Source: Candidatus Accumulibacter aalborgensis (GTDB lineage: Bacteria > Pseudomonadota > Gammaproteobacteria > Burkholderiales > Rhodocyclaceae). Taken from it: a stretch of DNA of 47,093 bases. Below, one piece after another: positions 3 through 10,126 of the stretch. The stretch's first letter is position 1; each line of letters starts with the position of its first letter. The notes beneath the pieces are model-generated. The model was given only the letters and a program-made list of their open reading frames with translations, was not told the origin of the DNA and ran no database searches. The stretch spans positions 1 through 47,093 of the forward strand of contig NZ_FLQX01000139.1 of the NCBI RefSeq assembly GCF_900089955.1, given 5' to 3'. A program made the position numbers and the translations under genes.

Positions 3-1346
<1,344 letters not shown>

Positions 1347-1350
1347 GGGT

Positions 1351-1851
1351 TCAGTCTGTGCACTCTCCGGCCGCGGCCAGCATTCCCGACCTCAGGCTTG
1401 GCGAAATGTAATAGCCCACCGCGCACAGGCGCTCCATCAGAGGTGCCAACCGTTGCACGTGGCCAGCCCGTTTTCCCAGGAGCAGCAAGCCGCAGACACC
1501 GATCACCTGCAAGCCCAGCGCCTGGGCGGAACGTCGCCCTTGCCGCTCGTCAATCAGAATTTCCGCATCGCGTGCCAGCGCACTGGCAATAGCAGCGGTC
1601 TCCCCAGGGTCCAATTTTGTGGCTCTCACTTCCTCTGACGGAACGTCAGCCGGTATCCGGCACAGCACCCCCGACGCCACAGCCTGCCGAATCGCGGCAG
1701 CATCCTCACACTGTGACTGGGCCAGACATTCGTTGAAAACGGCTTCCGGTACGAGTACTTGGCCGAATAATTGCCCAGGCAGCCCGAGCAGGCCAAGTTT
1801 GGCCAAGGCAATCAGCGGCCCACTGTCAACGACGAGCAAGCTCTTCGACAT
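1351..1851 (-). CDS. PIN-like toxin (DUF3368 family)
   Basis: Predicted 166-residue ribonuclease-type toxin. It opens MSKSLLVVDSGPLIALAKLG, the PIN-like start with acidic D9, and continues with a middle LDPGETAAIASALA and ILIDERQGRR, typical of DUF3368 proteins whose partner is a UPF0175/Phd antitoxin. A longer frame runs upstream to 1989, but the start at 1851 gives the family N-terminus and a 26-bp overlap with the antitoxin, as expected for a TA pair. The gene sits inside the cas operon, between cas6e and cas1, with 4 bp to cas1. Family assignment is from motif recognition; activity is inferred. Confidence 0.85.
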   Translation of the reverse strand: MSKSLLVVDSGPLIALAKLGLLGLPGQLFGQVLVPEAVFNECLAQSQCEDAAAIRQAVASGVLCRIPADVPSEEVRATKLDPGETAAIASALARDAEILIDERQGRRSAQALGLQVIGVCGLLLLGKRAGHVQRLAPLMERLCAVGYYISPSLRSGMLAAAGECTD

Positions 1852-2164
1852 GGGCCAACTCGGCTTCCAGTTCATCTGCCGAAAGGCGAACCACCGACAC
1901 GCCCTGGGCGGAACAAAATTCCATGAATTCCCCAAGCAACATGCCGGCGATCTTCGCTGCCTGACGCAAGGTAATCGCCTCGTCGTCAAACAGCTTCACC
2001 GCCAATGCGGCCAGAACGCCTTTATGCAAAACCTTTTCGTCGAACGGCACGGCGATGAATACCGGGGTGCCATGCTTGGTGACAATGGACAACTCTCCGT
2101 CCTCCGCCCCCCGGATCAACTCCCCGGTACGCTCGCGCAGGTCTCGGACTGTGAAGGTTTGCAT
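1826..2164 (-). CDS. Phd/UPF0175-type antitoxin
   Basis: Predicted 112-residue antitoxin for the overlapping PIN toxin. Residues 1-45 (TVRDLRERTGELIRGAEDGE, then KHGTPVFIAVPFD) look like a Phd/YefM DNA-binding domain. Residues 60-85 (ITLRQAAKIAGMLLGEFMEF) look like the UPF0175 helix-turn-helix, so this seems to be a two-part antitoxin. The start at 2164 is chosen because GGGAG lies about 6 bases upstream; the frame extends 14 codons further without an RBS. It begins 66 bp after cas6e, so it may be read from the cas promoter, and its Phd-like domain may also autoregulate the pair. Confidence 0.83.
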   Translation of the reverse strand: MQTFTVRDLRERTGELIRGAEDGELSIVTKHGTPVFIAVPFDEKVLHKGVLAALAVKLFDDEAITLRQAAKIAGMLLGEFMEFCSAQGVSVVRLSADELEAELAHVEELARR

Positions 2165-2230
2165 GATGCTCTCCCGGAAATGGTTTGTGCCATCAAACGA
2201 TAGCACAAATCTTGCTGCCGACTCCCCGCC

Positions 2231-2950
2231 TCAAACCCGCCGCACCAGAAGCAGGCCGCAGCCGAAGGCTTTGGCGTGGCCTATGCCTTCGCGCAGGGTC
2301 TTACCGAACAAATTGGGGTCCGTCACGGTCAGCTCGCCGCTGAAATCCACGGTGGAAATTCGCAACTGCCCTTCTTTCTTGCTACCGTGCTGCTGGTAGG
2401 CTTCCACCGCTAGGCACTTCTGGTCAACGGCAAACCCGCGCAGAGGAGCGCGATCACTGAGCCAAGCGCCGGCATGTTCTTGCACCAACTCGTACAACTC
2501 CGGCCGTGGGTCTGGACTGCCGTCCGGCTGGATGCGGTCGGGTTTCCAGTCTTCCCATTTGTTCAACCCCCTTTCGACGAGCAGTGTTTTCTTGGCTTCG
2601 ATCACGACATCGTGCCGCGTTCGCTTGCCGGTTCGGCTATGGGTAACGACGGGGTTGGCACGAAGCTCGAATTGCAGCCGGTCTCCAATTTCCAGGACCG
2701 GGGCGTAGTCCCGGGGATGAATCAGCCAGGCATCGGCAGCGGGTACAGGCGGGCGCTGGGAGACAACGTAGAAACGGGGCAGTCCATCCGCATCCCGACG
2801 GCGAAACAGGAAGTCCCGCGGGCTGCCCGCTTCCGCTGGGAAGAACCGCCACAACCATTGGTGCTCGACGTAAGGGCCTGCCGAACGCGCCCAGGCGTGG
2901 GCCGCTTCCCGTTCCCGGCCGGGGACGGGGGTGATCAGGCTGAAATACAT
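2231..2950 (-). CDS. cas6e: Cas6e (CasE/Cse3), crRNA-processing endoribonuclease
   Basis: Cas6e cuts the pre-crRNA at the base of each repeat hairpin and stays bound as the head of Cascade. The product (239 aa) begins MYFSLITPV and keeps the family hallmarks: YVEHQWLWRFFP around residues 27-38, with H30 in the position of E. coli catalytic H20; RDFLFR; QFELRANPV; and the C-terminal glycine-rich loop GIGHAKAFGCGLL. The start at 2950 lies 1 bp beyond the cas5e stop; a 9-codon longer frame is less likely. It should process the lone repeat found at 7249-7275. Confidence 0.96.
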   Translation of the reverse strand: MYFSLITPVPGREREAAHAWARSAGPYVEHQWLWRFFPAEAGSPRDFLFRRRDADGLPRFYVVSQRPPVPAADAWLIHPRDYAPVLEIGDRLQFELRANPVVTHSRTGKRTRHDVVIEAKKTLLVERGLNKWEDWKPDRIQPDGSPDPRPELYELVQEHAGAWLSDRAPLRGFAVDQKCLAVEAYQQHGSKKEGQLRISTVDFSGELTVTDPNLFGKTLREGIGHAKAFGCGLLLVRRV

Positions 2951-2951
2951 G

Positions 2952-3719
2952 TCAGGACTCCTCTGCCAACAGCGCAATATGCTCGATCCGGTCGCCGAAT
3001 TGCCAACTGCGGCGGCGGATCAGGCGGTCCTTGCGGCGGGTGCTCAAGTGGATGTTTGCCCCCGCCGCTACGCCTTCCGACCAGGCCAGCTTGCGTATCG
3101 GCGCCAGTTCTTCCAGCGGTGGGCGGCCTTTCCTGTCCAGGTGCTTCCGGCGCTCAGCTTCAATCTGTGCCCGGTAGGCTTCCATGGCGGACAGCGCCGA
3201 ATCGGCCGCGAGCACGAGCGGATGCAAGGGTGCGGCGGGCGGGCACGATTTACGGCCCAGGTAAAGCACGAAATGCGGCTTTTGCAAGGCCTCCGCCAGT
3301 TCCGCCAGGGTACGGGGCGCACCGTCGAAGGCCTGCACCGCCACCAGCGAGGCGGCGTCCTGCCGGTAATCACGGGTGGACAGAATGGTGTGCAGATCGG
3401 ATTTTGGCACCGCCAGTTCGTCCCGACGCGTGGCGTGAGGACGCTTTTTCAACGCCGTCTGGCCGGGCACCTGGGCCGTGTGATAGTCGCGCAACAGGTG
3501 GCCGCCAGATTGGATGCCAACGGCAAAGCCGTAGCTCGCGGCCAGGGCGGCATGGGCAGCTTCCTCCTCCCGCCGCAGGCCCAGGGCGGCGCCAAGCAGA
3601 CCGACCAGGGCCGATTGGCCGGGATAGTCGATGCTGGGCCGGTATTCTCCGACCGCCGTATCGCCCCAAGACGCCAAAGGCGCTTGTAGTTGAAAAATCA
3701 GGAAGTCCATGGCCATCAT
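2952..3719 (-). CDS. cas5e: Cas5e (CasD), Cascade subunit
   Basis: Cas5e grips the 5' handle of the crRNA at the foot of Cascade. The 255-residue protein starts MMAMDFLIFQLQAPLASWGD, the classic Cas5e opening, and contains PSIDYPGQSALVGLLGAALG and the RDYHTAQ stretch of the family. The start codon overlaps the cas7e stop as ATGA (3716-3719), indicating translational coupling. The 3' end abuts cas6e. Length is slightly above E. coli CasD, and no motif appears damaged. Confidence 0.96.
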   Translation of the reverse strand: MMAMDFLIFQLQAPLASWGDTAVGEYRPSIDYPGQSALVGLLGAALGLRREEEAAHAALAASYGFAVGIQSGGHLLRDYHTAQVPGQTALKKRPHATRRDELAVPKSDLHTILSTRDYRQDAASLVAVQAFDGAPRTLAELAEALQKPHFVLYLGRKSCPPAAPLHPLVLAADSALSAMEAYRAQIEAERRKHLDRKGRPPLEELAPIRKLAWSEGVAAGANIHLSTRRKDRLIRRRSWQFGDRIEHIALLAEES

Positions 3720-4774
3720 TCCTGGACAAATGCTACCAGTTCGGCCAGCGAGCCCTCGCCGGTTTCGACGTTGAACTTATAGCGGTCATCGGCGCAGGCG
3801 CCATAGACCTTGTCGAAATTCACGTAGCGGCGTTCGAGTTCCTTGACCGACTTTTCCAGCATGTCTTCATTCTCGAATGGCTTGACCGGCTTCAGGAAAG
3901 CCTGGGCCAGGGATCTGGGTTGCTGGTCTCCCCTCTCGGCCAGGACATAGCTGGCGTAAGAGCGGGAAGCATGGCTGTTCTGCATGCCCGTGGGGGCAAT
4001 CTTGGTCAAGGCATGGAGAAAGGCTTCCAGACTCTTGGCCGTCAGTTCCGCGTCCCCGCCCAAGTTCGCCTGGAGGAGTTCCCGGTTGATGCAGACATAA
4101 AGGTAGAACAGGCCGGCGCCGTAGCCGCGTTCGCCAATGTGGGCGGCTCCCTTGTCGGTCTTGTTCAGATCATCCACGGCGCTAAAATAATCGTCTTCCA
4201 CCACGGATTTGTGGACGGTGATGGCGTGGGACACCTGGACCGCGGCTTCGACGTTGAACAGCGGGTTGTCCGCCAGCATGCGACCGAACATAGCGATGTC
4301 GGCTGCTTGTTGGGGTTTGCGCAGAAGCTTCAATTCCTCATCGGTGGGTGCGCTGTTGCGTGCGGCGCAGGCCTGCACCAGAGACTCGATGGCGGCTTGC
4401 TCCTCCGTCCCGAAATGGGCAAGCTGCTCAATTTCCAGGTCTTCGTCATTTTCGGTTTTCTTGTCGGACTTGATCTTGCCGAACTGGCCCGCGATGCTAC
4501 GCGCCCATTCCCGGGCGGCCTTTTCGGCGCTGCCGGCCTTCTTCAGCGCGTCAAAGACTTCCCTGCCCATGCGCTTGGTCCGGGTGCCGACATGCCCCGC
4601 AAGGGCGGTGGTGAAAATGTCCGAGGTTCTCCAGGCGCGCTTCTGGCTCTGGGAAGAAATTCGCAAGCGGGTTGCGTCGCCCACCAGGGCGGTCTTGGGC
4701 CGGCCGGTGTCGTCACGGTTGAGGTTGGAGGGCGGATAGTTGGTCAGGACATGCAACTGGACAAAGCGCGACAT
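3716..4774 (-). CDS. cas7e: Cas7e (CasC), Cascade backbone
   Basis: Cas7e forms the six-copy backbone that holds the crRNA spacer. Flipping out every sixth base of the guide is a property of this backbone and matters for the CreR match at 7179. The 352-residue protein starts MSRFVQLHVLTNYPPSNLNR and has RLRISSQSQKRAWR, the E. coli CasC signature (NRDD; RISSQSLKRA). The start at 4774 is preceded by AGGAG about 6 bases upstream; a 36-codon longer frame lacks this. The C-terminal part keeps NSHASRSYASYVLAERGDQQ. Confidence 0.97.
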   Translation of the reverse strand: MSRFVQLHVLTNYPPSNLNRDDTGRPKTALVGDATRLRISSQSQKRAWRTSDIFTTALAGHVGTRTKRMGREVFDALKKAGSAEKAAREWARSIAGQFGKIKSDKKTENDEDLEIEQLAHFGTEEQAAIESLVQACAARNSAPTDEELKLLRKPQQAADIAMFGRMLADNPLFNVEAAVQVSHAITVHKSVVEDDYFSAVDDLNKTDKGAAHIGERGYGAGLFYLYVCINRELLQANLGGDAELTAKSLEAFLHALTKIAPTGMQNSHASRSYASYVLAERGDQQPRSLAQAFLKPVKPFENEDMLEKSVKELERRYVNFDKVYGACADDRYKFNVETGEGSLAELVAFVQE

Positions 4775-4820
4775 TTTCTTCTCCTGTAAATTGGAAAGCG
4801 CGTAAAGGGGGCTAGGCTTT

Positions 4821-5387
4821 TTACTGCTTGGTCTTATCGGGCCATTGGTATGCGTAGGCCCATCGTTTTTTGACTGAGTCACTCCATGAGAGAACGTCGT
4901 CGGCTAGCGCCAGGATGTCCAAAGCCTTGCCATCCACTGTCTTGACCAAGAGCGGCAATACGCGGCGCAGGCCGGTGAACAAATCTTCCAGGTCCGGGGA
5001 GTCGAGCAATCGCAAAAAACGTAGCTCGCTGACGACCGGGCGATCCGTTTCTTTTTTTCTAACGCTCATGGCTTCAGGGAGTGAAAGAACGCCGTTTTTT
5101 TGTTTCTTCCCGTCCACATCCCCTCGCACATGAGCCAAAAGGGCAACTAACGCCGCCAAATGGTCATTGCGATATGCAGGGGCATTCTCAGGCCATCCGA
5201 CATTTAGTAGCCGGCGATATAGGCGCTGGTAGGGGGCACTGAGCGCAACTGACGTAACGGAATCAGCCCGCCTAAGGATGGCGCGGCTGGCCCGGTCGTC
5301 CTCCAGGTCTTTCCACCACTCAAGTAAACAGCCGCCGAGAGCGGTTGGCCGCAAATTGCCGACTTCCTTGTCATACCAGTTGAACAT
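4821..5387 (-). CDS. cse2: Cse2 (CasB), Cascade small subunit
   Basis: Cse2 is the dimeric small subunit that stabilises the R-loop. The all-helical 188-residue product has typical Cse2 features: an LGGCLLEWWKDLEDDRASRA segment near the N-terminus (basic and acidic helices), RLLDSPDLEDLFTGLRRVLP in the C-terminal half, and a basic tail. An AAGGA RBS for this gene overlaps the end of cse1. Lengths and order (cse1-cse2-cas7e) fit type I-E. Cse2 diverges fast, so the call rests partly on position. Confidence 0.93.
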   Translation of the reverse strand: MFNWYDKEVGNLRPTALGGCLLEWWKDLEDDRASRAILRRADSVTSVALSAPYQRLYRRLLNVGWPENAPAYRNDHLAALVALLAHVRGDVDGKKQKNGVLSLPEAMSVRKKETDRPVVSELRFLRLLDSPDLEDLFTGLRRVLPLLVKTVDGKALDILALADDVLSWSDSVKKRWAYAYQWPDKTKQ

Positions 5388-5396
5388 GTTTTTTCC

Positions 5397-7010
5397 TTAC
5401 GCAGCCTTCCTGGCTGCCTTGGTTGGCTTTTTTTCGGGGACGGGGAGGCCCAAGGCCCCAAGCAGCTTGGGGCCGCGCAGGTTCCTCTTGAGTTGGGTGT
5501 GGGCTTCGGCGATGCGGCGAGGATTCTGCCGCTCCACCTGGCCGGCGCCGACAAATTCTCCATCGAACAATCGCTCGGCAGTGTGCAGGAGAACCTGGTG
5601 CCAAGCCTGGCGCGCAGGAAGGGCATCTCGCTCGATAGCTTGTCTTTCACGGTCGATCAGGGCTTGCAACTGGCGATAGAAGGCGTCCTCGGTCCGGCTC
5701 CAGAAGGCTGCGTCCACCGCGCTGAAATCGCCCCGTGCATCGGCGCTGAACCAGGCGTCTTTCACTGCGCCGCGCAAATAGCTGGCGGCCAGGTCGGCGC
5801 TGGCCAACCACAACCCGACCTCATCCCGTATCCGCTCCAGAGCCCCGGATGCGCACTCGGCCAGGTCGTAAAGCGGCACGACGGATTCGTACCAGCAACG
5901 GGCCTTCATGTTGTCCATGTCGTAACCGAAGGCCCAGAGCCGCAAACCGCCGCCGAGTTGGCTGTGGCGGTGATCCAGCGCATGGCTGACAATGCGGGCC
6001 GCCCGCTGCTTCTTTTTGTCCGAAGTTTGGCCCAGCACCCAGGCCAGCCAGTGGCGATAACCCAGACCGCCGGGCTGGGGATGGAGCGGCAACTCGCCAT
6101 CCTTGGCCTCGTAGTAAGGCGACAAAGGGTGATTCCAGGCGCCTTTGTAGTTGAGGCCGTAGTTCTTGGTCGCGTATTGACGGATCAGCCGGTCCGATTC
6201 GCGCCCGCAGATACTGCATTGCCCGCTGGCAACCGCATCAAGGTCGAGGCGGACGCGGCGCGGCATGGCCCAGAACAGATGATCGGGATGTACTTGCGCC
6301 GGAGCCGTTTCGCCGCTCTCCTTCTGGATGGCGCTCATGTCGGCGAGCCAGGGAAAGCGGAGGTGCTCGCCCACCTTTCCGGCGTCGCCACAAGAGGCGA
6401 GGAAGACTGAGCGCTCCTGCACGTTCAGCCACAGATCGCGCCACAGACCTCCGGGCGGTTGGCCAACGAGGAGCGTGGTGAGCGGGCCACCGCCGCGCAG
6501 GCCAGTGCGATGACCGACACCGCCAGACGGCGCATTGAGTTGCAGGGTCTGCAAGGCGGTGGCTGCGCAAGCCGGGCAAAGGGAAGCAGCTTGACCACGT
6601 TTGACGAAGTGGTCGCTGTTGTTTTTCAGGGCATTCTCGCCGGGCATTTCAATCAGCAGAGCACCGATGTCATTGACCGTACCATCGTCGGCCTTGAGAG
6701 TGAAATCCTGCATGAACCGCGCTCCGGCGCCGTCGAACTCGAAGGCCTTCAACACCGGCGCAAACCATTCCGCCAAGCTGGCCGCGTTCGGCGGGGTGGC
6801 CAGCAGCTTGCGCCACTGACTGGCGCTATCCGCCGGGGTGGTAGTTTGCAGCAGTCCGATGGCGAACTGGGCCAGGGCGCCATTGAAGTCCGGCCGGTCG
6901 GCGTCGAAGGCGACGATTTCCGTGTCGGAAAACCGGGTAGGTGCGATCCATTCCCGGCTGCCGTCGCGGCGGCGTACCGGAATCCAGGGTTCATTGAGCA
7001 GCAGATTCAT
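5397..7010 (-). CDS. cse1: Cse1 (CasA/Cas8e), Cascade large subunit
   Basis: Cse1 recognises the PAM and recruits Cas3. The 537-residue product starts MNLLLNEPWIPVRRRDGSRE and carries the usual CPAC (145-148), GVGHRTGLRGGGPLTTL (about 165-180), a second CxxC (CSIC) and a helical C-terminal bundle. The start at 7010 is preceded by GGGAG seven bases upstream. A good sigma70 promoter lies at 7137-7165, giving a leader of about 120 nt. Just beyond it is a sequence matching the seed of the adjacent CreR-like crRNA, so this gene and the Cascade/adaptation genes behind it are the probable targets of autorepression. Confidence 0.96.
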   Translation of the reverse strand: MNLLLNEPWIPVRRRDGSREWIAPTRFSDTEIVAFDADRPDFNGALAQFAIGLLQTTTPADSASQWRKLLATPPNAASLAEWFAPVLKAFEFDGAGARFMQDFTLKADDGTVNDIGALLIEMPGENALKNNSDHFVKRGQAASLCPACAATALQTLQLNAPSGGVGHRTGLRGGGPLTTLLVGQPPGGLWRDLWLNVQERSVFLASCGDAGKVGEHLRFPWLADMSAIQKESGETAPAQVHPDHLFWAMPRRVRLDLDAVASGQCSICGRESDRLIRQYATKNYGLNYKGAWNHPLSPYYEAKDGELPLHPQPGGLGYRHWLAWVLGQTSDKKKQRAARIVSHALDHRHSQLGGGLRLWAFGYDMDNMKARCWYESVVPLYDLAECASGALERIRDEVGLWLASADLAASYLRGAVKDAWFSADARGDFSAVDAAFWSRTEDAFYRQLQALIDRERQAIERDALPARQAWHQVLLHTAERLFDGEFVGAGQVERQNPRRIAEAHTQLKRNLRGPKLLGALGLPVPEKKPTKAARKAA

Positions 7011-7136
7011 GGTGTCTCCCGAGGTGAAGTGTGACGGAGCGGTTTTGGAGGCCGCCTTTCCGCTTTCAGCGGCGATTGCCTGACTTTTGGAGGATCAAGG
7101 AGTCCACGCGTTGGTGTGGCGGGTGTCACAGCGCGC

Positions 7137-7165
7137 ATGTTATGTGAGGTTGCTAGCAGAGTCAA
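7137..7165 (-). promoter_or_regulatory. Putative sigma70 promoter of the cse1 (Cascade) operon
   Basis: On the minus strand TTGACT (7165-7160) is followed by 17 bp and TAACAT (7142-7137), a good sigma70 pair. Transcription would start near 7130, giving a leader of about 120 nt before cse1. The DNA just upstream (minus-strand CTTCTTTTTTGTTATTTG) is A/T-rich like an UP element, and it overlaps the CreR-like protospacer. Confidence 0.6.
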
Positions 7166-7172
7166 TAACGTT

Positions 7173-7201
7173 TTGAAGGGTGAAGGTTTTTCAAATAACA
7201 A
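7173..7201 (+). promoter_or_regulatory. Possible promoter of the CreR-like RNA
   Basis: On the plus strand TTGAAG (7173-7178), 17 bp, then TAACAA (7196-7201) forms a moderate sigma70 match pointing at the lone CRISPR repeat. Predicted start is near 7208, about 40 nt before the repeat. The AAG PAM is the second half of this -35 box, and the protospacer fills the spacer and -10. If real, the crRNA would also repress itself. Weak consensus; inference. Confidence 0.35.
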
Positions 7202-7210
7202 AAAAGAAGT
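7176..7210 (+). promoter_or_regulatory. PAM and partial protospacer for the CreR-like crRNA
   Basis: AAG at 7176-7178 is the canonical type I-E PAM. The next 16 bases (7179-7194) match the first 16 bases of the 7276-7307 spacer at 14 positions. The mismatches are position 6, which is not paired in I-E R-loops, and position 9. Bases 17-32 do not match beyond chance (4 of 16). Such a seed-limited match should allow Cascade binding without full R-loop formation and Cas3 cutting. The site lies about 11 bp upstream of the cse1 -35 box. Confidence 0.75.
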
Positions 7211-7248
7211 CCATTTTGCTCAGCTCATGTTTGTGAGAAACTCGCGCC

Positions 7249-7275
7249 GTTCCCCGCACGTGCGGGGATGAACCG
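7249..7275 (+). CRISPR. Lone type I-E CRISPR repeat
   Basis: A 27-base core that starts GTTCCCCGCACGTG and ends GATGAACCG. It contains the perfectly palindromic CCCCGCACGTGCGGGG (Cas6e hairpin) and is the standard proteobacterial I-E repeat. It is not followed by an ordinary array: only one further, decayed repeat is present. Confidence 0.88.
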
Positions 7276-7309
7276 GGTGATGGCTTTTCAATCGGCTATA
7301 TGCGATCTC

Positions 7310-7336
7310 GTTCCTCGCCTAAGCGGGGCTTGCGCC
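7310..7336 (+). repeat. Decayed second repeat overlapping the cas3 3' end
   Basis: Begins GTTCCTCGCC exactly 61 bp after the first repeat and matches it at about 18 of 29 positions. All six stem pairs are kept: CCTCGC, loop CTAA, GCGGGG, with one G.U wobble. Cas6e could therefore still recognise it. It contains the cas3 stop codon (7319-7321), so the same bases serve a protein and a structured RNA on opposite strands. Confidence 0.7.
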
Positions 7337-10126
7337 GGACAGAACATCGTTCGGCGCTTGCACTTCAACCAATCCCAGTTCGCTGCTGTATCGCCAAACT
7401 TTTTCCTGGGCAGCCTTCCCTTCCTCTGGCCGACTAAGCGCTTTTCCGATCCACTCGCCCGCTACCTCGTCAAGTGGCAGCAGCACCGACCATTTCCCCT
7501 TACCTGGCAAACTGAGCAGCAACTGATCGACAGCGGCTTTCCTGACGGGGTCGGTTTCCTCGAATGAAGCGGCAATCAGTCTTTCCGCCATGCGCAGGCT
7601 GCTGTAGGCCCAGGCGTGGCGTCCGCCTTCATACCCGGCCCAGGGGCAAAGTTGCCCGCCTTCCCAGCGGACGAGCACGACGGTGGTAGTGGCCTCGCCC
7701 AAGCGCGAAGGCGTTTTCGCTTCGCTCCACCAGTCGATTACGTCGCTGCGGACATAGCCGGCTTCGCGCTTGACGATGTTGCGCTGTGCTTCGCTCATCT
7801 GGCCGTAGCGTTCGCCTTCGGCCCGGTTGGCGTTGGCTTCCAGGCCCTTTGGGATATCGGCGTCAGGGCCGAAGACACTTTCGATCAGCGGGCGAGCGCC
7901 GCCGGGCATGGCAATGCTTCCCTGGCGCAAGGCCTTGGCGGTCAGCCATAACTGGCCGTGGTGGGGATAGACGCCCGCCGCCTTGGGCAGGAATTCCTTG
8001 AACCACCGGGCGTGCGGCTCATCCGACCAGGCCGGGCCGAAGACCCACAGGCAGGGAGTGCCGCGCTGGTCTCGAGCGGCGAGGTCGGCAAGACGCATCC
8101 CTATTGGGTCGCGCGGGTGCCTTTGCAGTCGCCCGGCCCGCTGGATCAGGCGGTCTATGGGCGCCAGGTCGCTGACGACGAGATCCCAGTCCGCGTCCAG
8201 GCTTTGCTCGGCTACCTGAGTGGCGATGACCAGCTTGCCGGCCCTGCTTTTCGGGTTGCTGTCCTTGCCGAAACTCTCCAGGATGTCCTGCTCGGTGCCC
8301 AACCGGTCGACATAGGCAAAGCGGCCATGGAACAGGGTGAGCCGCTCCGGTGGCAACTTTTCAGTGAATTTTGCATGGGCGGCCAAGGCGTCGAAGACGG
8401 TATTGCGCATCCAGCACACGCACTTGCCTGCCGCCAGGGCTTGTTCAATGGCGACAATGACTTCGGACTCTTCGGAAACATAGCGCACGGCCAGTTCCCG
8501 GCAGATATCGGGTCGAGTCGCCAAGGGCGTTTCCTGGAGGAGGTCGGGCGCGGCACTGTGCCAGGCGCACACAACCGGATAGGCGGATTCCCGGATTCGG
8601 GGTACGGCCTGACCGCGTCCGCGGGCAAACGCATCCAGCAGGGATTGCTTCATCCGTTCCGGCAGGGTGGCGGAGAGAAGGATCGCGCTGCCGCCGGCCT
8701 GGGCGTGAAACTCCAGCAGGGTTTCCAGTACTCTCTGCATGTAGGGGTCGCAGGCGTGCACTTCGTCCACCACCAGCACCTTGCGCAACAGGCCGAGCAG
8801 GCGCAAGGACTGATGCTTGCTGTGCAGGACCGCCAGCAGGGCTTGATCCACCGTCCCGACGCCGGCGGGAGCTAGGAGGGCGCTCTTGTTGCGGTCGGCG
8901 AGCCAGGCGGCGCAGCGGGCGCTGGCGGTTTCGTCGAGTTGCCGGCGGTCTTCTTCGTCCGGTCCGGGCCTGAAGACGGACTTGGCGAAGTAATCCACGA
9001 GCTTGCGCTGGCCATGGGCGAGTACCAAGCTGGCGAACCCAACAAACAAGCGCTCTTGGACCTGGTCAATGCGCCTGTACATGGCGTTGGCGGTGGCCAT
9101 CGTCGGCAAGCCGATGAAAAACCCATCGGCGCAGCCGCCAGCCATGAGCCGGTGGGCAAGCATCACTGCCGCCTCTGTCTTGCCCGCGCCGGTGACATCT
9201 TCGAGCAGGTAAATCTGCGGCCCCGCGGAGAGATCTGCTCGGCATACCCACTCCTGGAGCGGCGAAGGCGTCTCGATGGCGGAAAACAGGTCTGAAAAGC
9301 CGAGTTCTTCCTGTCGTCCGGGTGGCAGCACACCGGAAGACTGCAAAGCACGGCGAGCTTGTTTGCGAGCGTAAGCCCAATATTCGGAAAGCGGCTGGGG
9401 ATCGGTGCGATAGGGGAAGAAGTCGGTATTCGATCCCAGCCAGTCGGCCAGGACGGTCACTCCAGCCACCCACCAGGACAGCAGTTTGCTGGTATGCTCG
9501 AACGCTTCCTCATCGAGTCGGCCGGGAATGGCCCGTACCGCATCGGTCAGCAAAAGCTCGGATAAATCGGCGACGAAGCGGGCGATGGCGGCATTATCGT
9601 CTCGCCGGTCGAAGTGGCTTTCCCAGAAGTTGTGGCTGGATTCGGGCGGTTGCCCATGGTGGCCGGTAACCGCGCGCAGCCACCAATTGAGCCCATCTGT
9701 AGCTTCGGCGCTGCCCTCGCCAAACCAGGATTCCTCCTCTGCCTGGGCGGCGAGAATGTCCCGCCAGTAGAGCCAGCCGAGACTGTCGTGGCGGATACGA
9801 TAGGGTTTGCCCGGCGCGGGCGGGCGGTCGCGCAAGGCCTGGAACAAGTCCGGCTTCTGCCCCTGGAAGGACTCGGCAAACTTGCCCAGGTCGTGCAGCG
9901 CAATCCAGAACGCCAGCCACCGGGGAAGCGAATCTTCGTCCACGTTTCCCAGGGACTGCCGCAGCAAGATTTGCAAAGCCGGGGTTCGCCGCAGGTATTG
10001 GTCGGCCACTGCCGCCACGTCCAGACAGTGATAGGCCAGGCTGTGCCAGCCCGGGGAATGGGCTCGGTCCGGCGGCAATTCGCTCGACGCTTTGCCCCAA
10101 TACGAAAAATACCGCGGATCTGCCAT
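7319..10126 (-). CDS. cas3: Cas3 helicase-nuclease, type I-E
   Basis: Cas3 is recruited by Cascade to a full R-loop, then nicks and degrades target DNA. The 935-residue protein has an N-terminal HD nuclease domain (H28, H33, IALHDLGKFAESF with H78-D79) and an SF2 helicase. Helicase motifs are Walker A DVTGAGKTEAA (310-320), DEVH box (454-457), SAT (485-487) and a QRAGRLQRH motif VI further on. AAGGGG precedes the ATG at 10126. It is separated from cse1 by about 310 bp that hold the promoter and CreR-like element, so it can be expressed separately from Cascade. Its last codons lie inside the decayed CRISPR repeat. Confidence 0.97.
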   Translation of the reverse strand: MADPRYFSYWGKASSELPPDRAHSPGWHSLAYHCLDVAAVADQYLRRTPALQILLRQSLGNVDEDSLPRWLAFWIALHDLGKFAESFQGQKPDLFQALRDRPPAPGKPYRIRHDSLGWLYWRDILAAQAEEESWFGEGSAEATDGLNWWLRAVTGHHGQPPESSHNFWESHFDRRDDNAAIARFVADLSELLLTDAVRAIPGRLDEEAFEHTSKLLSWWVAGVTVLADWLGSNTDFFPYRTDPQPLSEYWAYARKQARRALQSSGVLPPGRQEELGFSDLFSAIETPSPLQEWVCRADLSAGPQIYLLEDVTGAGKTEAAVMLAHRLMAGGCADGFFIGLPTMATANAMYRRIDQVQERLFVGFASLVLAHGQRKLVDYFAKSVFRPGPDEEDRRQLDETASARCAAWLADRNKSALLAPAGVGTVDQALLAVLHSKHQSLRLLGLLRKVLVVDEVHACDPYMQRVLETLLEFHAQAGGSAILLSATLPERMKQSLLDAFARGRGQAVPRIRESAYPVVCAWHSAAPDLLQETPLATRPDICRELAVRYVSEESEVIVAIEQALAAGKCVCWMRNTVFDALAAHAKFTEKLPPERLTLFHGRFAYVDRLGTEQDILESFGKDSNPKSRAGKLVIATQVAEQSLDADWDLVVSDLAPIDRLIQRAGRLQRHPRDPIGMRLADLAARDQRGTPCLWVFGPAWSDEPHARWFKEFLPKAAGVYPHHGQLWLTAKALRQGSIAMPGGARPLIESVFGPDADIPKGLEANANRAEGERYGQMSEAQRNIVKREAGYVRSDVIDWWSEAKTPSRLGEATTTVVLVRWEGGQLCPWAGYEGGRHAWAYSSLRMAERLIAASFEETDPVRKAAVDQLLLSLPGKGKWSVLLPLDEVAGEWIGKALSRPEEGKAAQEKVWRYSSELGLVEVQAPNDVLSGASPA

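Follow-up and report, generated by a model that had tools for sequence, protein, structure and literature searches.

We find that the 308-nt gap between cas3 and cas8e (cse1/casA) in the type I-E CRISPR (clustered regularly interspaced short palindromic repeats) locus of Candidatus Accumulibacter aalborgensis holds a one-spacer mini-CRISPR, antisense to the cas operon, whose guide matches the promoter region of cas8e. Judging from the sequence, this element is very probably a type I-E CreR (cas-regulating RNA), which would direct the autorepression of its own cas operon. The stretch analysed, hereafter the window, comprises the 47,093 nucleotides of contig NZ_FLQX01000139.1. The evidence consists of the anatomy of the element, the match of its guide and the uniqueness of that match, covariation across species, a 6-nt periodicity of pairing, and the proximity of the promoter.

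The mini-CRISPR comprises a first repeat, a 32-nt spacer (the guide) and a second repeat at a period of exactly 61 bp (Table 1), an arrangement which an initial annotation had proposed from the letters of the sequence and whose positions are recovered here. The same spacing is found in the main array of the genome (contig C15, 38 repeat copies allowing 4 differences), from which the element stands apart; a one-spacer mini-CRISPR within the cas locus, separate from the main array, is a feature of CreR. Both repeats are present, yet the first, previously called intact, differs from the array repeat at 3 positions, and the second, previously called decayed, keeps its hairpin (6 bp with one G-U pair, the loop overlapping the cas3 stop codon at 7319-7321) without the 3' handle. 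An Rfam search at E-values up to 1 matched no family.

Guide bases 1-16 are identical to the target at 14 of 16 positions, directly preceded by AAG, the protospacer adjacent motif (PAM); the mismatches at positions 6 and 9 only, and the lack of any match at positions 17 and 18, reproduce what had been reported. A promoter scan likewise recovered the TTGACT-17-TAACAT promoter which had been placed beside the target (1 found versus 0.2 expected in shuffles), with 10 bp between the PAM and this promoter. As match score we counted matched positions among 1-17 without 6 and 12 (maximum 15). The window scores 13/15, a value that dinucleotide shuffling of 7011-7245 did not reach in 20,000 trials (best shuffle 12), and in a specificity control the 37 spacers of the genome's own array scored at best 10, none of them equalling the guide. 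Moreover, a genome search that allowed up to 2 mismatches to AAG followed by guide bases 1-16, position 6 being N, returned only this site and the guide itself; the reversed control pattern gave 1 match. Chance resemblance, in favour of which it can be said that the match is short and imperfect, is ruled out by the shuffle and array-spacer controls together with the swapped-region control described below, and its probability is negligible.

Table 1 Positions of the target, the mini-CRISPR and the cas genes in the window
Feature	Position	Strand	Basis or remark
PAM AAG of target	7176..7178	+	sequence match
Target, displaced-strand sequence	7179..7194	+	mismatches at positions 6 and 9
Promoter-like TTGACT-17-TAACAT for cas8e	7137..7165	-	promoter scan
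First repeat: GTT, hairpin CCCCGC-ACGT-GCGGGG, 5' handle ATGAACCG	7249..7275	+	sequence comparison with array repeat
Guide (spacer), 32 nt	7276..7307	+	bases 1-16 pair target at 14/16
Second repeat: hairpin 7313-7318 with 7323-7328, handle lost; overlaps cas3 3' end	7310..7336 (GTTC from 7310)	+	
cas3	7319..10126	-	ORF listing and protein family models
cas8e (cse1/casA), first gene behind targeted promoter	5397..7010	-	ORF listing and protein family models
cse2, cas7, cas5, cas6e	2231..5387	-	ORF listing and protein family models
cas1e and cas2e	152..1346	-	ORF listing and protein family models
ORF, open reading frame.

To survey type I-E systems, cas8e loci were gathered from a scan of a contig collection (80 kept of at least 447 confirmed) and from genome searches covering near relatives (5/101), the family (26/395), the order (16/399), the class (27/369), the phylum (18/398) and a gammaproteobacterial order (22/293), some genomes recurring. 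With 57 loci set aside as unusable and 5 as duplicates, the main set holds 99 non-redundant loci: 51 with a cas3-cas8e gap of more than 120 nt (gap loci), 42 in which the two genes abut and sequence upstream of cas3 is at hand, and 6 without cas3. With a detector that ignores the target and relies on hairpin, handle and second GTTCC, mini-CRISPRs came to light in 41 of the 51 gap loci, 3 of the 42 abutting loci (weak) and 3 of the 6 loci without cas3. A target site was accepted where it followed AAG in the locus's own region, had a seed match of at least 8/10 and was equalled by at most one swapped region. Such sites accompany 35 of the 41 gap mini-CRISPRs, none of the 3 in abutting loci and 1 of the 3 in loci without cas3, and own-region scores of at least 12 occur in 31/41 gap loci versus 4 of 2,162 swapped pairs. 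Five of the six failing gap loci have a site with a 10/10 seed once the PAM rule and the mask are relaxed (AAG in L055, ATG in L047, AAA in L079, L111 and L140), so that 40/41 gap mini-CRISPRs match their own gap, 5 of these under relaxed rules only. Additionally, locus L143, overlooked by the blind detector, has a match of 15/15, and 8 of 10 further non-redundant gap loci have a guide and an AAG site (taken by eye, not swap-tested).

Since guides differ between species, their fit to their own gaps represents covariation rather than plain conservation, and the guide-target match is kept while sequences diverge, a further feature of CreR. The recurrence of the repeat-spacer-promoter match in related I-E loci, on which the initial annotation had staked its proposal, is borne out by these 35 AAG sites and 5 relaxed sites with species-specific guides. 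A peculiarity of one genus is ruled out, as matches occur in Beta- and Gammaproteobacteria, Desulfobacteraceae and Dethiosulfatarculus (L088, L095). No mini-CRISPR with a target upstream of cas3 was found in the 42 abutting loci, the 3 weak mini-CRISPR matches being all that was recovered there. In the congener A. regalis (L012) cas3 and cas8e abut, with the upstream sequence lying outside the scan.

Pairing was then tallied over a set of 43 loci, comprising 35 from the main set (36 less L147, whose guide is the same as that of L089) and the 8 taken by eye. Matches at positions 1-18 number 43, 42, 41, 43, 40, 9, 43, 43, 34, 41, 38, 11, 38, 33, 30, 26, 20 and 7: positions 1-5 and 7-11 are matched, 13-17 decreasingly so, and 6, 12 and 18 are near chance. 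Type I-E R-loops leave these positions 6, 12 and 18 unpaired. The dips are unaffected by the entry rules, because those positions are not scored; the AAG found in 43/43 loci is not independent evidence, because AAG and a seed of at least 8/10 were entry rules (35 loci) and sites were sought behind NAG only. Thirteen of the 43 guides are only 20-25 nt long, the letters past their end belonging to the second repeat. In a 33-locus set positions 18-32 are near expectation (largest excess 13 versus 8.0, at position 25). Short seed-side matches spare a target from interference; the window element combines a PAM with a limited, seed-side match to a cas promoter region, and this match is too short for interference, both in the window and, past position 17, in the 33 loci. 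Such a half-length match with a 6-nt period resembles a half-length R-loop of type I-E and would fit selection for Cascade binding without a full R-loop, a pattern which duplication or plain antisense pairing would not leave.

The repeats are consistent with a single product. The first repeat keeps its handle, and its stem pairs vary between loci yet still pair, an observation that is supportive only, because the stems are part of the detection rule, which included the first-repeat hairpin, and GTTCC for the second repeat. The second repeat has a hairpin in 43/43 loci and a handle in 2 (L190, and L095 with one change); a third handle reading, in L131, was rejected as an artefact of the region's end. 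A first repeat with handle followed by a 3' hairpin without one is the minimum for one CRISPR RNA (crRNA). Distances from handle to second repeat form two groups, of 32-34 nt (30 loci) and 20-25 nt (13 loci); the two guide-length groups differ by about two 6-nt Cascade units.

These patterns bear on the possibility that the element is what remains of a lost CRISPR array whose spacer was taken from the cell itself, its promoter match being a functionless leftover. Spacer acquisition from a cell's own DNA is possible, and a second repeat without handle is what a relic might show; however, guides that vary from species to species still fit the promoter region of their own locus, positions 6, 12 and 18 vary freely with 1-5 and 7-11 retained, and the parts lost are those which one crRNA does not need, which is unexpected of decay. 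We consider a relic very unlikely.

Promoter scans further gave a suggestive, though not uniform, picture of where -35 boxes lie relative to the PAM. The best -35 box lies at +1 of the PAM complement CTT in 11/43 loci (PAM and -35 box overlapping) and at +10 to +13 in 10/43, the window at +13, compared with 11 and 7, respectively, of 247 other CTTs of the same regions (Fisher 5e-5 and 2e-5). This excess is consistent with Cascade binding at the promoter but stopping short of full interference. The two favoured distances lie about one helical turn apart.

By analogy with the published CreR paradigm, transcription, processing, binding, repression and release by crRNAs or anti-CRISPRs may be envisaged as follows. 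A short antisense transcript across 7249-7336 would be cut by Cas6e into one crRNA-like guide; Cascade would load this guide, bind the AAG site (7176-7195) and open a half-length R-loop of about 16 bp, and this R-loop, 10 bp upstream of the cas8e -35 box, would impede the transcription of cas8e and the genes downstream. As the match stops near position 17, licensing of Cas3 is not expected. With Cascade and guide blocking the cas8e promoter, free Cascade would lower its own synthesis, and competing crRNAs or anti-CRISPRs would lift the block. If this is true, CreR would be a route by which changes of the array, or phages carrying anti-CRISPRs, affect Cascade levels.

Several observations weigh against CreR-type autorepression. 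In the window the seed carries a mismatch at position 9. The window precursor is predicted to fold with both repeats paired to each other (z -2.0; 7/200 shuffles fold equally well), and binding by Cas6e would need to overcome this. A convincing promoter that could drive the antisense transcript did not emerge from the promoter scan of the window, nor in E. coli; a weak TTGAAG-17-TAACAA (7173-7201; found by eye, 7/12, absent from the promoter scan output) would overlap the target in the window. Half of the surveyed loci (22/43) have their best promoter-like pair at neither favoured distance. Locus L177 has a mini-CRISPR and no target in its gap even under relaxed rules, 9 of the 51 gap loci yielded neither mini-CRISPR nor target, and guide and AAG site were not found in two of the ten further gap loci (L201, L202).

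A window-like antisense mini-CRISPR is also present in the cas3-casA gap of E. coli K-12 MG1655 (NC_000913.3; L164:7354-7563), with the hairpin CCCTAC-TTAA-GTAGGG, the handle ATAAACCG, a guide and an AAG target scoring 13/15, mismatched at positions 6 and 9. Using the window gap as query, a distant sequence search among E. coli genomes gave no match, and the K-12 element was located by its structure. The K-12 gap is matched in 1,126 of 5,426 complete genomes, in 1,106 over at least 80 percent of its length, and seven sequences (K-12 and six picked among the 40 matches listed) were aligned; the weight of this alignment lies on JNE151685 (89.6 percent), because the other five picked share at least 97.7 percent identity with K-12. 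No column varies in the first repeat or the handle. Position 7 has changed in guide and target alike (A in JNE151685, G in K-12), and at target position 9 JNE151685 has C, pairing with the guide C of all seven sequences, where the K-12 target has T; JNE151685 scores 14/15. A TTCAAA-18-TATTAT overlaps the E. coli target and is a candidate antisense promoter, for which we make no claim because 3.6 such sites are expected by chance.

E. coli K-12 thus seems to have a CreR-like element in the gap that also holds anti-Pcas. This divergent promoter (Pul et al. 2010, as cited in PMC10011333) shares gap and direction with the window element, and differs in that the E. coli locus is silenced by H-NS; that 2023 review calls its role unknown, with interference with cas3 termination or translation as a suggestion (PMC10011333). 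An antisense RNA that acts independently of Cascade, for instance at the end of the cas3 message, would accord with this suggestion and with the overlap of the second hairpin and the cas3 stop codon. It leaves the handle, the PAM and the covarying, 6-nt-periodic match unexplained, no terminator-like site was found in the scan of the window, and we regard it as exceedingly improbable. We propose that anti-Pcas may make a CreR in E. coli, which would give this promoter a concrete role.

The mismatches that do occur in the seed (positions 1-5 and 7-11) are strongly biased. Among 22 such mismatches in the 43 loci, 17 pair a guide C with a target T (displaced strand), the other five being T>C, T>A, G>A, C>A and A>G, one each; guide C is mismatched at 18/78 sites and guide G at 1/117 (Fisher 2e-7). 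Nine of the 22 lie at position 9, as in the window (7187) and K-12. Positions 13-17, in 35 loci, are free of this bias (4 C>T, 7 G>A, 12 T>A and 9 C>A, among others). Wobble was rejected as the cause of the C>T excess, given that rG:dT and rU:dG predict G>A and T>C, each of which occurs once; the wobble pairs, expected to be best tolerated, are the rare mismatches. Deamination of displaced-strand cytosines under a frequent R-loop would yield the C>T asymmetry. The two E. coli haplotypes are consistent with the target, not the guide, having changed. Selection for a particular weakening mismatch is a possible alternative, and the mismatch count is small. These observations can be joined in a wider reading, namely that every type I-E cas8e with a promoter to itself is by default under CreR control, K-12 included (anti-Pcas existing to make CreR), and that the target is so often open that displaced-strand C decays to T; we offer this tentatively and consider it somewhat doubtful. 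Were it true, the seed mismatch would be a footprint left by mutation under a standing R-loop, and also a natural means of tuning how strongly CreR represses. Among the open-access matches listed, with subscription papers and supplements outside the scope, no description of the E. coli element or of the mismatch bias was found.

The survey indicates that type I-E systems in which cas8e has a promoter of its own may commonly be subject to guide-directed autorepression, and the presence of CreR appears to go with such a promoter. It also offers a signature for finding CreR, consisting of the handle, the 6-nt-periodic half-length match and the 3' hairpin without handle.

The type I-E operon itself lies on the minus strand and runs cas3, cas8e, cse2, cas7, cas5, cas6e, two further genes, cas1e and cas2e. 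The two between cas6e and cas1 (1351-2206, minus strand) are a Phd-type antitoxin gene and an ORF without NCBIfam model name, which are possibly a toxin-antitoxin pair within the operon.

A different kind of module, CreTA, must also be weighed, in which the guide would repress a toxin between target and cas8e and not cas8e. The anatomy of CreA is the same as that of CreR (PMC12948488), and both CreA and the window element have a crRNA-like guide with a partial promoter match, CreA acting through Cascade as the window element is predicted to do. However, CreA represses a toxin gene, whereas cas8e stands behind the window site. The leader on the cas strand has two nested ORFs of at least 7 codons, and none exceeds the 13 codons of the longer one, which leaves an RNA toxin as a possible product. 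A CreTA-like module is highly improbable here.

CreR was reportedly described by Liu et al. (2023, Cell Host Microbe 31:1481) in types I-B, I-E and V-A. According to three reviews (PMC13131331, PMC12948488, PMC12737573), CreR RNAs autorepress systems of these types via a limited promoter match. The window element shares with them a mini-CRISPR beside the cas genes and a limited guide match to a cas promoter, and no toxin gene was seen with it; compared with CreR as these reviews describe it, no difference of kind was found. As the element has every CreR feature that a sequence can be tested for, we count it as a further CreR, with a mode of control that has already been described.
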